A stretch of 64,000 nt of DNA, from contig NZ_AUEP01000004.1 of assembly GCF_000426045.1 (NCBI RefSeq), positions 186,001 through 250,000 on the forward strand, in the 5' to 3' direction. A program made the translations under genes and the position numbers. The DNA is from Marmoricola sp. URHB0036. GTDB taxonomy: Bacteria; Actinomycetota; Actinomycetes; Propionibacteriales; Nocardioidaceae. The notes beneath the pieces are model-generated. The model was given only the letters and a program-made list of their open reading frames with translations, made no database searches and was not told the origin of the DNA. Shown here piece after piece: positions 34,456 through 37,841 of the stretch (within the stretch, counting starts at the first letter, position 1; each line of letters begins with the position of its first letter).

Positions 34456-34526
34456 CACACCGGCTGGGCATTCGTTGGGCGTCGGTGTTTGACTGACGGT
34501 GACCGTCGCCGAGCGAAGGAGAACTC

Positions 34527-35648
34527 GTGTCCCTGCGCACCACACCGCCGTTCCGAGCCGACCACGTCGGGAGCCTCCTGCGGCCCAAGCCGTTGCTCGA
34601 GGCCCGGGCTGCCCACGCCCAGGGCGAGATCACCGACGAGCAGCTGGCCGCCACCGAGGACGCCGCGATCGCCGACGTCGTACGCCTGCAGCAGGACGCC
34701 GGGCTGCAGACGGTGACCGACGGGGAGTTCCGTCGTACGTCGTGGCACATGGACTTCATCTACAACATCGAGGGCATCCGTCGTACCGAGGAGCAGATGG
34801 AGGTCCACTTCCACAACGCGGAGGGCGACCTCGACTTCACCTCGGCCGGGCTCGTGGTGCACGCCCCGGTGCGGATCGAGGAGCCGATCTTCGGCGGCGC
34901 CTTCGACTACCTCCAGTCGGTCGCGCCCGAGGGGATGACCCCGAAGCTGACCATCCCGTCGCCGAGCATGGTCCACTACCGCGGCGGGACGGCCGCGATC
35001 GACCCGAACGTCTATCCCGAGGAGGACCAGTTCTGGGACGACCTGTCGGCGGCGTACGCCCACCAGGTGCGGTTGATCGCCGAACGTGGCTGCCGCTACC
35101 TCCAGCTCGACGACACCAGCCTCGCCTACCTCAACGACCCCGAGCAGCGCGCCAACGTGGCCGCCCAGGGTCGTGACGCCGAGCACCAGCACGAGCGCTA
35201 CATCCGCCAGATCAACGCCGCCATCAAGGACCGTCCCGAGGGCCTGAACGTCACCACGCACATGTGCCGCGGCAACTACCGCTCCTCGTGGGCGGCCTCC
35301 GGCAGCTACGACTTCGTGGCTGAGGCACTGTTCAGCGAGCTCGACGTGGACGGCTTCTTCCTCGAGTACGACGACGAGCGCTCCGGCGGCTTCGAGCCCC
35401 TCCGGTTCGTGCCGAAGGGCAAGCAGGTCGTGCTCGGCCTGGTCACCACCAAGCGCCCGGAGCTGGAGAGCAAGGACGACCTCAAGCGCCGCATCGAGGA
35501 GGCGTCGAAGTACGTCGACCTCGACCAGCTCTGCCTCTCCCCCCAGTGCGGCTTCTCCTCCACCGTCGAGGGCAACAACCTCACCGAGGGCGAGGAGATC
35601 GACAAGCTCCGCCTCGTCGTCGAGACCGCCCAGGAGGTCTGGGGCTAA
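34527..35648 (+). CDS. MetE C-terminal-like (cobalamin-independent methionine synthase II) protein
   Basis: This is a 373-residue TIM-barrel protein of the UROD/MetE-like superfamily, similar to the catalytic half of cobalamin-independent methionine synthase. The zinc ligands are visible: THMCRGNYRSS, the Glu in FFLEYDDERSG and the Cys in LSPQCGFSS. It lacks the N-terminal MetE domain that binds folate, so it may take another methyl or alkyl donor; some relatives are epoxyalkane:CoM transferases. GTG 34527 has GAAGGAGA upstream. The stop is followed directly by the 32-base repeat array. Confidence 0.88.
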   Translation: MSLRTTPPFRADHVGSLLRPKPLLEARAAHAQGEITDEQLAATEDAAIADVVRLQQDAGLQTVTDGEFRRTSWHMDFIYNIEGIRRTEEQMEVHFHNAEGDLDFTSAGLVVHAPVRIEEPIFGGAFDYLQSVAPEGMTPKLTIPSPSMVHYRGGTAAIDPNVYPEEDQFWDDLSAAYAHQVRLIAERGCRYLQLDDTSLAYLNDPEQRANVAAQGRDAEHQHERYIRQINAAIKDRPEGLNVTTHMCRGNYRSSWAASGSYDFVAEALFSELDVDGFFLEYDDERSGGFEPLRFVPKGKQVVLGLVTTKRPELESKDDLKRRIEEASKYVDLDQLCLSPQCGFSSTVEGNNLTEGEEIDKLRLVVETAQEVWG

Positions 35649-35654
35649 CTCCCG

Positions 35655-35750
35655 CGACCGGGCAGTTCTGGTTGCCTGAAGTACGCCGACCGGGCAGTTC
35701 TGGTTGGCCGGAGTACGCCGAGCGGGGGCTTTTGGTTGGCCGGCGTCCAC
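35655..35750 (+). repeat. Left half of inverted 32-bp-period repeat array (three units)
   Basis: Three head-to-tail units of exactly 32 bases start at 35655, 35687 and 35719. Each contains the core TTCTGGTTG (TTTTGGTTG in the third) at 35666, 35698 and 35730, preceded by GGGC-type G tracts and followed by GCCGGAGTACGC-like sequence. The first two units are nearly identical. A degraded fourth unit may begin at 35751. The array starts 6 bases after the MetE-like stop. Confidence 0.92.
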
Positions 35751-35858
35751 CGCTCACCGGTCGTCGGGAAGCAGCCCGCTCGTGTGACCACCAGGGACCG
35801 CACGACCACGAACAACCTCGGATCCGTGGAGGCGTGCACATCCAGTGCCCGGTCGACG

Positions 35859-35986
35859 TCGTACGGCCAACCAGAAGTGCCCTCTCAGCGGCCCGCGATC
35901 AACCAAGACCGCCCTGTCAGCGCCGTACAGCAAACCAAAACCCCCCGCTCAGCGGACTGCAGCCCACCAGAAGTGCCCTCTCGGCG
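35859..35986 (-). repeat. Right half of inverted 32-bp-period repeat array (four units)
   Basis: Four units of exactly 32 bases end at 35890, 35922, 35954 and 35986. They carry the same core in reverse orientation (CAACCAGAA at 35868, with variants at 35900, 35932 and 35964), each followed by a CTCAGCG-like end. The last unit ends 3 bases from the glmM stop. With the left half and the 108-base centre (35751-35858), which shows no other feature, the array fills the whole 340-base gap between two convergent genes. Confidence 0.92.
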
Positions 35987-35988
35987 GG

Positions 35989-37335
35989 CTAGAGGGCGAG
36001 CTGCTGGTGTACGACGGCGGCGAGGCGGTCGGCGATGTCGCGGGCCTGGTCGGCGCTGGCGGCCTCGACCATGACCCGGACGAGCGGCTCGGTGCCGGAG
36101 GGGCGGAGGAGGACCCGGCCGGTGTCGCCGAGCTCGGCCTCGGCCTCGGCGACGGCGGCGGCGAGCACGAAGTCCTCGTCGGTGCGGGACTTGTCGACGC
36201 CGGGCACGTTCACCAGCACCTGCGGCAGCCGGGTCATCACGCCCCCGAGGTCGGCCAGGGTGCGTCCGGTCGCGGCCATCCGGTCGAGCACGTGCAGGGC
36301 GGTCAGGATGCCGTCGCCGGTGGTCGCGTGGCGGCTCATGATGACGTGGCCCGACTGCTCACCACCGAGGGTGAAGCCGGAGAGCTTCATCGCCTCGAGG
36401 ACGTAGCGGTCACCCACCTTCGTCTGCCGTACGCCGACACCGGCGGCCTTCATCGCCTGCACGAACCCGAGGTTGCTCATCACCGTGGCCACCACGGTGT
36501 CGTCGTGCAGCTCACCGGCCTCCCGCATCGCCAGCGCGAGGATGGCCAGGATCTGGTCGCCGTCGACGATGGCACCGCTCGCGTCCACCGCGAGGCAGCG
36601 GTCGGCGTCCCCGTCGAGGGCGAACCCGACGTCGGCACCGTGCTCGACGACCGCCTTCTGGAGGACCTCGAGGTGGGTGGAGCCGCAGCCGTCGTTGATG
36701 TTCACCCCGTCGGGCTCGGCACAGATCGCGACCACCTCGGCGCCGGCCTCGCGCAGCGCTCGGGGGCCGACCTCGAAGGCGGCACCGTGAGCGCAGTCCA
36801 GCACGACCTTGATGCCCTCGAGGGAGTGGCTGATCGTCGAGTCGAGGTGGGCGGCGTACTGCTCGACCGCCGTGTCCAGGGTGCGCACCCGACCCACCGC
36901 AGCGCCGGTCGGGCGGTCCCAGGGCTCTCGCATCCGCTTCTCGATGGCGACCTCGATGGCGTCGTCGAGCTTCACTCCCCCGCGGGCGAGGAACTTGATG
37001 CCGTTGTCGGGCATCGCGTTGTGCGACGCCGACAGCATCACGCCGAGGTCGGCACCGAGCTCGCCGGTCAGCCAGGCGACACCCGGGGTCGGCAGCTCGC
37101 CGAGCAGCAGCACGTCGACCCCGGCCGAGGCGAGACCCGCCACCACGGCGGCCTCGAGGAACTGACCGGAGATCCGGGTGTCGCGGCCGACGACCGCGAC
37201 CGGCCGGTGACCGTTGAAGGTGCCGGCCTCCGCGAGGATGTGCGCGGCGGAAACGGAAAGGTCCAGGGCCAGCTCAGCGGTGAGATCACCGTTGGCCAGA
37301 CCCCGGACCCCGTCCGTGCCGAAGAGGCGAACCAA
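35989..37335 (-). CDS. glmM: Phosphoglucosamine mutase
   Basis: This enzyme converts glucosamine-6-phosphate to glucosamine-1-phosphate for UDP-GlcNAc synthesis. The 448-residue protein starts with [17 protein letters not shown], has the phosphoserine loop [13 protein letters not shown] (S104), the magnesium site LDGDADRCL and the sugar-binding [22 protein letters not shown] lies near the end. The start is TTG at 37335, two bases after the rpsI stop, supported by alignment with the usual [12 protein letters not shown] start. It ends the rplM-rpsI-glmM gene string. Confidence 0.96.
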
Positions 37336-37337
37336 GA

Positions 37338-37841
37338 TCAGCGCTTGCTGAACTGCGGCGCCTTGCGGGCCTTCTTCAGACCAGCCTTCTTGCGCTCGAT
37401 GACGCGTGCGTCGCGGGTCAGCAGCCCGGCCTTCTTCAGACCCGGGCGGTTGGCCTCTTCATCGATGGAGTTCAGGCAGCGGGCCACGCCGAGACGCAGG
37501 GCGCCGGCCTGGCCGGTGATGCCACCGCCGTGGATGCGCGCGATGACGTCGAAGCGACCCTCGAGCTGGGTGGTCGCGAACGGCTCGTTGACGACCTGCT
37601 GGTGCAGCTTGTTGGGGAAGTAGCTGTCCAGCTCGCGGCCGTTGACCAGCCACTTGCCGGTGCCGGGGACGATCCGGACGCGGGCGACGGCCTCCTTGCG
37701 ACGGCCGGTGGCCGCGGCGGGGGCGATGGTCGCCGGCTTGGCGGGGGCGTCGGCACTCGGCGCGCTCTCGGAGGAGTAGGCGACACCCTGCTCGTCGACC
37801 TGGTAGGTCTCCTCGGCGGTGTCGTTCTCTGCGTCTGCCAC
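37338..37841 (-). CDS. rpsI: 30S ribosomal protein S9
   Basis: This small-subunit protein contacts the tRNA anticodon loops through its C-terminal tail. [15 protein letters not shown], the [10 protein letters not shown] block, [17 protein letters not shown] and the terminal [12 protein letters not shown] are canonical. As in other Actinobacteria there is an acidic, Ala/Pro-rich extension of about 45 residues before the S9 fold. I favour GTG 37841 with AAAGGA 5 bases upstream; GTG 37877, overlapping the rplM stop, would add 12 residues. Confidence 0.96.

Follow-up and report, generated by a model that had tools for sequence, protein, structure and literature searches.

The stretch of Marmoricola sp. 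URHB0036 DNA that we analyzed (64,000 nt; hereafter, the window) contains an array of short repeats in the gap between two convergent genes, and the question that this locus raises is what such an array is and how it came to be there. A repeat-family search and a unit model reproduced the layout given in the original prediction, i.e. three forward (F) and four reverse (R) units with an exact period of 32 bp. As had also been claimed, the array fills the gap between the two stop codons to within a few bases, with 4 nt left on one side and 3 nt on the other (Table 1). The two arms had been described as facing each other across 108 bases; there is indeed a loop, but it is shorter than it appears, since the core scan detected a degenerate R core within it, in 32-bp register with R1.

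Table 1. Features of the repeat array and the neighbouring genes (positions in the window).
Feature	Position	Strand	Basis and remarks
Upstream neighbour gene, 373-aa ORF, start GTG	34527..35648	+	ORF list and gene call; stop codon 4 nt before F unit 1
F unit 1, 26 scored bases of the 32-bp unit	35653..35678	+	PWM score 31.1; repeat-family search
F unit 2	35685..35710	+	PWM score 37.7
F unit 3	35717..35742	+	PWM score 31.7
Inter-arm loop	35743..35842	.	The equivalent loop of one other G000 copy holds the nuclease gene
Degenerate extra R core, 2 mismatches to the core	35843..35857	-	Core scan
R unit 1	35864..35889	-	PWM score 37.6
R unit 2	35896..35921	-	PWM score 28.9
R unit 3	35928..35953	-	PWM score 27.4
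R unit 4, 3 nt from the stop codon of the downstream gene	35960..35985	-	PWM score 33.3; gap measurement
Downstream neighbour, 448-aa protein, used as marker gene, presumably phosphoglucosamine mutase-like	35989..37335	-	ORF list; all 24 genomes of the genus, own included, have a match

The unit consists of a short core and a variable remainder. In the genome of URHB0036 (G000), it reads approximately GCCGA(C/G)(C/A)GGGC(A/G)NTTYTGGTTGGCCG, of which GCCGA(C/G)(C/A)GGGC(A/G)NTT is common to other species. The claim that the units share a core stands for this common part, and needs correction for TTCTGGTTG, the lineage-specific half, which is only partly kept even in the window array (TTTTGGTTG in F3; R2, R3 and R4 differ). 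With up to three mismatches allowed, the core has 12 matches in the window, five of them inside the array, against 4.1 expected, and none of 100 shuffles reached 12.

Short and regular repeats could also represent a CRISPR, an integron attC array or a chance repeat, and we consider the probability of any of these to be negligible. The array contains no spacers, its units vary outside the core, its arms are opposed, and an Rfam search of positions 34500-37500 of the window gave no match; the judgement that it is not a CRISPR was thus correct. Moreover, CRISPRs are made of identical repeats and unique spacers, whereas the variable part of the present units is common to units of the same arm in three of four genomes. 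A chance repeat is refuted by the reversed-pattern controls, which gave no pairs in G000 and in four other scans, and pairs in two of 341 genomes in the family-wide scan.

The possibility that the array lacks sister copies was not borne out, as at least 15 arrays of the window type are present in the 4.83-Mb genome G000; these 15 regions were taken from listed places, and further weak arrays may be present. When up to three mismatches were allowed, a 19-base pattern gave 70+67 genome matches versus 20+34 for the reversed pattern, and with one mismatch 59 versus none. The array regions were read with the unit model, and their genes were called from codon usage, with the window as training set. 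When split at long loops, they form 18 clusters, of which seven lie in convergent gaps, 11 in co-directional gaps and none in a divergent gap, and the distance from a stop codon to the arm that follows it is between -5 and +7 nt in 20 of the 21 cases measured. One of the G000 arrays (L024) carries the gene of a predicted nuclease between its F and R arms. From the list of units, we had the impression that the base after GGGCA is more often G in plus-strand units and C in minus-strand units.

Searches with the lineage-specific half gave the impression that the array is unique to G000, and it was the conserved half that revealed its relatives. Apart from G000, none of 149 family genomes had more than single or double matches to the TGGTTG half, and exact-pattern scans of genome contigs with the lineage-specific half, which are blind to other units and may omit the own genome, found nothing. 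Neither the array (by pattern scan) nor a relative of the nuclease was found in viral contigs, and blastn did not find the array in plasmids and phages. A search for the core at 32-base periodicity, which had been proposed along with the original prediction, yielded sister arrays in the host as well as tandem pairs of the shared half in 39 of 341 family genomes. At least three pairs are present in 26 of these (hand count). The highest pair counts given here are those of G257 (101+95) and G084 (52+55), followed by G071 (31+36) and G000 (20+23, against 0 for the reversed pattern). The G084 counts are slightly inflated, because the same arrays are found at both ends of its contig C1 (21-394 and 4051814-4052187), which looks like the untrimmed overlap of a circular chromosome.

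Between species, the copy number varies from a single pair at one extreme to about 200 tandem pairs at the other, and the second half of the unit also changes. Even within one genus, cores and array positions are not stable from one species to the next. This can be followed at the site of the downstream marker gene, which was scanned in 24 genomes of the same genus, own included. At this site, G071 has an array made of a different unit with the same 32-bp period, G084 has two degenerate units, G089 has units about 650 nt further on, and in the remaining relatives the scan showed no units near the gene.

Together with the 18 clusters of G000, 27 from G257 (20 regions) and 28 from other genomes (25 single loci) give a set of 73. 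The single loci are 25 of the 29 in L063-L091; L063, L084 and L091 were dropped as lone pairs inside genes, and L068 because it repeats a G000 array. The longest array of the set, L079:1437-1996 of G169, has seven F and 11 R units with the core variant GCCGAGCTGGC/GCCGAGCTGAC. The gaps that hold the clusters are convergent in 36 cases, co-directional in 33 and divergent in four, versus eight, 42 and eight for the 58 gene pairs of the window that served as baseline. Arrays of this kind are hence not restricted to convergent gaps. Both arms are present in 30 of the 73 clusters, and F precedes R in all 30; the other 43 are one-armed as cut (F only or R only), some of them being halves of one array split by a gene or a long loop. 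Arrays start at the stop codon: 69 of 79 gaps, measured only for arms pointing away from the gene and counted from lists, are between -5 and +12 nt, and in several arrays the gene's own stop codon overlaps the first unit (gap of -5).

Such a placement would suit bidirectional terminators, in which transcripts from either side form a long hairpin by pairing of F with R, and a nuclease gene lies in some of the arrays by coincidence. Besides the start at stop codons and the 69 of 73 clusters in convergent or co-directional gaps, this explanation can draw on the fold of the window array, which is better than that of shuffles (z -3.58), and on four of seven single loci re-examined elsewhere, where the innermost F-R pair is close to a palindrome outside the core as well (0.8 to 1.0 over ten bases), although covariation cannot be judged from a single locus. 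However, an excess of folding is expected for any inverted repeat, and the terminator scan detected a single terminator-like site within the window array, on the minus strand. One-armed arrays exist, and the link with the nuclease described below is left unexplained.

We also compared the units of four genomes. In G257, G084 and G071, a unit resembles the others of its arm more closely than those of other arrays, which is not the case in G000 (0.60 versus 0.60). Over the variable 17 nt, F and R units of the same array are about as similar to each other as those of different arrays (same versus other arrays: 0.55 versus 0.55 in G257, 0.56 versus 0.59 in G084, 0.48 versus 0.47 in G071 and 0.57 versus 0.57 in G000). 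For positions 16-25 of the innermost F-R pairs, the values are 0.66 versus 0.59 (G257), then 0.61 versus 0.63, 0.58 versus 0.51 and 0.62 versus 0.61, an excess that is small at most. The low level of F-R covariation in these four genomes speaks against RNA hairpins without excluding them, and a conserved protein-binding core with a drifting remainder fits better than selection for pairing of F with R. An RNA hairpin or terminator was therefore set back as the main function, and we regard the terminator explanation as unlikely. A terminator, a recombination site and a protein-binding array had all been put forward for the locus; the last of these is now the best supported, and the first has been weakened by the F-R comparison and by the one-armed clusters.

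What the arrays may serve as binding sites for is indicated by genes outside the window, a link that hence could not be seen from the window sequence. The nuclease gene in L024 encodes a protein of about 325 aa, and nuclease homologues lie beside or between the arms of arrays in G082, G257 and G134. Pfam AbiEi_4 was matched by two of ten proteins from array loops or flanks, namely those of G000 contig C4 (L024) and G082 (L082), and the loop protein of L138 (G257) had no Pfam match. The proteins of L024, L082, L138 and L085 (beside the G134 array) form one family with identities of 47 to 66%, and in L024, L082 and L138 the nuclease gene is the sole gene called between the arms. Other genes found between arms (L025, L122, L139 and L140) encode MDMPI_N, HIT, ArsR-type HTH plus AHSA1, and short-chain dehydrogenase proteins; these bracketed genes have no common theme that would point to gene capture by the arrays.

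The family combines matches to an AbiEi-like winged helix with matches to a Vsr-type (MTES_1575/DUF559) nuclease domain. At E <= 0.1, AbiEi_4 was matched by 32 of 42 homologues, MTES_1575 by 29 (best 2.5e-7), AbiEi_1 by 14 and DUF559 by seven, and one AbiEi model of PADLOC matches all 42. For the G000 nuclease itself, AbiEi_4 is the sole Pfam match, and MTES_1575 was not matched. In the alignment of the 42 homologues, E211, E255, G258, H262, D271 and R274 are invariant and D244 is conserved in at least 90%. A search of three family members against NCBIfam gave no match, and a profile search of solved structures found no relative. The nuclease fold is thus predicted from weak matches in relatives and from the conserved residues. 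MTES_1575 has been described as a novel Vsr REase with a Vsr fold; in the portion of that paper drawn on here, it occurs in fusions with HEPN and other domains, without mention of repeat arrays (PMC3710099). G000 has a second nuclease homologue on contig C7 (L219:1673-2551), with no array alongside and a weak second match downstream.

Are nuclease and array associated beyond these cases? Homologues at 1e-30 occur in 260 of 341 family genomes. A score of 277 bits is reached by 38 genomes, with scores falling off gradually below this line, and most of this group sits in a supported clade of 35 rows of the nuclease tree. At least three 32-bp tandem pairs are present in 15 of these 38 genomes versus 11 of the 303 others (hand count). 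In other words, 11 of the 26 genomes with at least three pairs have no nuclease of 277 bits or more, and one of them (G147) is absent from the 1e-30 matches. The 32-bp pattern is blind to arrays with a 31-bp period, which were found at 12 of the top 30 homologue loci, and many lower-scoring homologues have arrays of another sequence (16 loci shown).

Tandem identity (at least 0.70 over 40 nt) served as the array criterion for 76 non-duplicate homologue loci. These comprise the top 30 by score, 20 picked lower, 27 from a class-wide search of 345 genomes (85 nuclease-positive at 1e-20) and L138, less two duplicates (L180 and L190); they were chosen by score and not at random. An array is present upstream of the nuclease gene at 55 of the 76 loci, downstream at 52, on both sides at 44, on either side at 63 and on neither at 13. 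The control frequency is six of 219 single 400-nt tiles from 22 marker-gene loci, from which the G071 marker locus was excluded as it has an array. An inverted match of at least 0.85 between the two flanks was found at 57 of 76 nuclease loci and at none of 219 control pairs. Both outer neighbour genes were called at 73 of the nuclease loci, and they are convergent in 65 of these, compared with 8 of 58 gene pairs in the window.

Two unrelated cores taken from the nuclease flanks of other genomes are also dispersed in those genomes. One, GTGATCATGCA, comes from the flanks of G367, G369 and G487, and occurs as tandem pairs in five of the 345 class genomes (G367, G369, G487, G428 and G577, with family codes f29, f31 and f41; 9 to 116 pairs each), versus none for the reversed pattern. 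All five are among the 85 nuclease-positive genomes, including G428 and G577, which were not used to choose the core. In four of the five, the nuclease gene is flanked by the exact core on either side; in G367 it is exact upstream, with a one-base variant downstream. The other, a 22-bp unit from the nuclease flanks of G004, forms 53+52 tandem pairs in G004 and none in 11 other genomes. The recurrence in other actinobacteria of a nuclease gene with its own repeat array suggests an undescribed selfish or regulatory repeat system.

The array periods bear on how a protein might bind. Of 58 loci called at 0.75, 41 have a period of 31-34 bp, eight of 21 or 22 bp, six of 42-44 bp, which are perhaps doubled 21-22 bp periods, and three others. 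Most of these are near two or three helical turns; the three others (19, 26 and 38 bp) do not fit whole turns. The F-R spacings of 34 junctions are mostly 40-42, 51-52, 62-63, 73 and 83-84, with 48, 56, 66, 120, 137 and 141 as exceptions. Their phasing at 10.5 bp has an R of 0.67, but 16 of the 34 belong to the single 51-52 class. The 14 junctions that are left when spacings up to 55 are removed have a p of about 0.03, and with the period set to 9, 10 or 11 bp, p is 0.05, 0.03 and 0.01, respectively; helical phasing of the spacings is therefore suggestive only.

The period class follows the nuclease tree, a quick tree in which 25 of 73 inner branches are open, with 19 changes over 63 labelled rows against a mean of 30.5 after shuffling (none of 300 shuffles as low). 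The signal is carried by the finer period label, as the distinction between two and three turns alone clusters weakly (10 changes; 10 of 300 shuffles as low). This agreement may reflect shared descent of arrays and genes, and so is no proof of recognition.

Upstream of the nuclease gene, the word CCTGTGGA or TCCACAGG (as in TTGTCCACAGG) occurs within 110 nt at 55 of 76 loci, versus 6 of 2364 control windows. Relative to the start codon that was chosen, most six-base forms lie near -48 or -57; the word is oriented one way at 40 loci and the other way at 15. We take TTGTCCACAGG to resemble the actinobacterial DnaA box; the word may tie the nuclease gene to replication, or be a part of its promoter.

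This motif at a fixed place, the periods of nearly whole turns and preferred F-R spacings, which fit proteins bound side by side, and the conservation of catalytic-looking residues would also agree with regulatory or chromosome-organising sites of the host. The protein would then be a domesticated DNA-binding factor, with its nuclease domain used in sensing, repair or defence, and the arrays would be selected rather than selfish. Cores and positions that turn over within one genus, the range in copy number, and array-bearing genomes that have no high-scoring nuclease speak against host sites of this kind. A selfish or drifting element fits these three observations better, and we hold the host explanation to be conceivable but rather doubtful.

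The system that is closest in layout, though not in enzyme or repeat type, is REPIN/RAYT (REPtron), which in the parts of the two papers drawn on here combines an enzyme gene with a scattered extragenic repeat in matched pairs (PMC3116915, PMC8266576). The present repeats likewise are dispersed extragenically and also bracket an enzyme gene. It would nevertheless be very improbable that they are REPs or REPINs whose driving enzyme is a tyrosine (HuH) REP-associated transposase encoded at another place in the genome. According to Pfam searches, which covered the bracketed proteins only, the enzyme matches AbiEi and a Vsr-type REase and no HuH (Y1) family. In addition, the units form tandem arrays with fixed periods of about two to three turns and a short dyad core, instead of single-strand hairpins, and their consensus has no GTAG/CGTC-type tag.

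Two other known systems share some features. The ends of multi-site transposons (Tn7-like, Mu) flank an enzyme gene with opposed arms that contain several protein-binding sites; in the present case, the number of units per arm varies widely and one-armed copies exist. The AbiEi-like winged helix is shared with the AbiE type IV toxin-antitoxin systems, and in the portion of the source concerned, AbiEi binds two 23-bp inverted repeats in its operator and Rv2827c four in tandem, with gaps of 3 or 13 bp (PMC7319586). The present family differs in its match to a nuclease domain and in its arrays, which flank the gene on either side and recur at dozens of further places. By analogy with the repeat binding of AbiEi and Rv2827c, a winged helix on the core of each unit would be the natural reading.

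Taking these results together, we think it probable that the window array is a dispersed, gene-less copy of the DNA target of the resident nuclease, in a layout like that of REPIN/RAYT with an unrelated enzyme and unrelated repeats. To the broader proposal we lend about as much belief as doubt: an undescribed two-part element, present throughout the Actinomycetes, in which a nuclease with an AbiEi winged helix and a Vsr-type domain homes behind convergent stop codons, is bracketed by head-to-head arrays of putative binding sites near whole helical turns, and seeds nuclease-less copies, the unit being re-invented together with the protein in each lineage. Points that weigh against the nuclease-target reading include the 13 array-free loci, the array-free homologue of contig C7 (L219), the 11 array-bearing genomes with no nuclease of 277 bits or more and the four divergent clusters. 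Neither an empty site nor a target duplication has been established. That no family of this kind has been described, as originally stated, holds for Rfam and for open-access full-text literature, among whose listed matches there were no repeat arrays around AbiEi/DUF559 nucleases; subscription journals and preprints could differ.

If the window array is such a target, binding, cutting and the spread of arrays could proceed as follows. The winged helix would bind the unit core, one protein per unit, and the proteins would lie on one face of the DNA helix because the units are mostly near two or three helical turns apart. The REase domain would then nick or cut the DNA, and repair would copy arrays into new sites, with the best survival just behind stop codons. 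We infer the spread from the number of arrays per genome and from the way in which they turn over from species to species; that they lie behind stop codons may reflect a preference for such targets or be the residue of selection. At the nuclease gene, bound arrays could act as an operator. Elsewhere, arrays could be inert passengers, roadblocks for RNA polymerase, which a bound array could halt, or sinks for the nuclease protein.

The nearest pair of enzyme and repeat known to us, REPIN/RAYT, rests on one enzyme fold, and a second, unrelated pair in Actinomycetes would allow a comparison of how bacterial genomes acquire scattered repeats. If the reading is true, it would also provide many natural protein-DNA pairs, in each of which one winged helix is matched with a particular core and period. 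It would further hint at what proteins currently annotated as AbiEi antitoxin or DUF559 do, and perhaps explain tandem repeats of unclear origin that are found at the ends of genes in Actinomycetes genomes.

Finally, the nuclease match contains one stop codon in G071 (L152) and one in G287 (L151). As G071 is still array-rich, arrays may outlive an intact nuclease.
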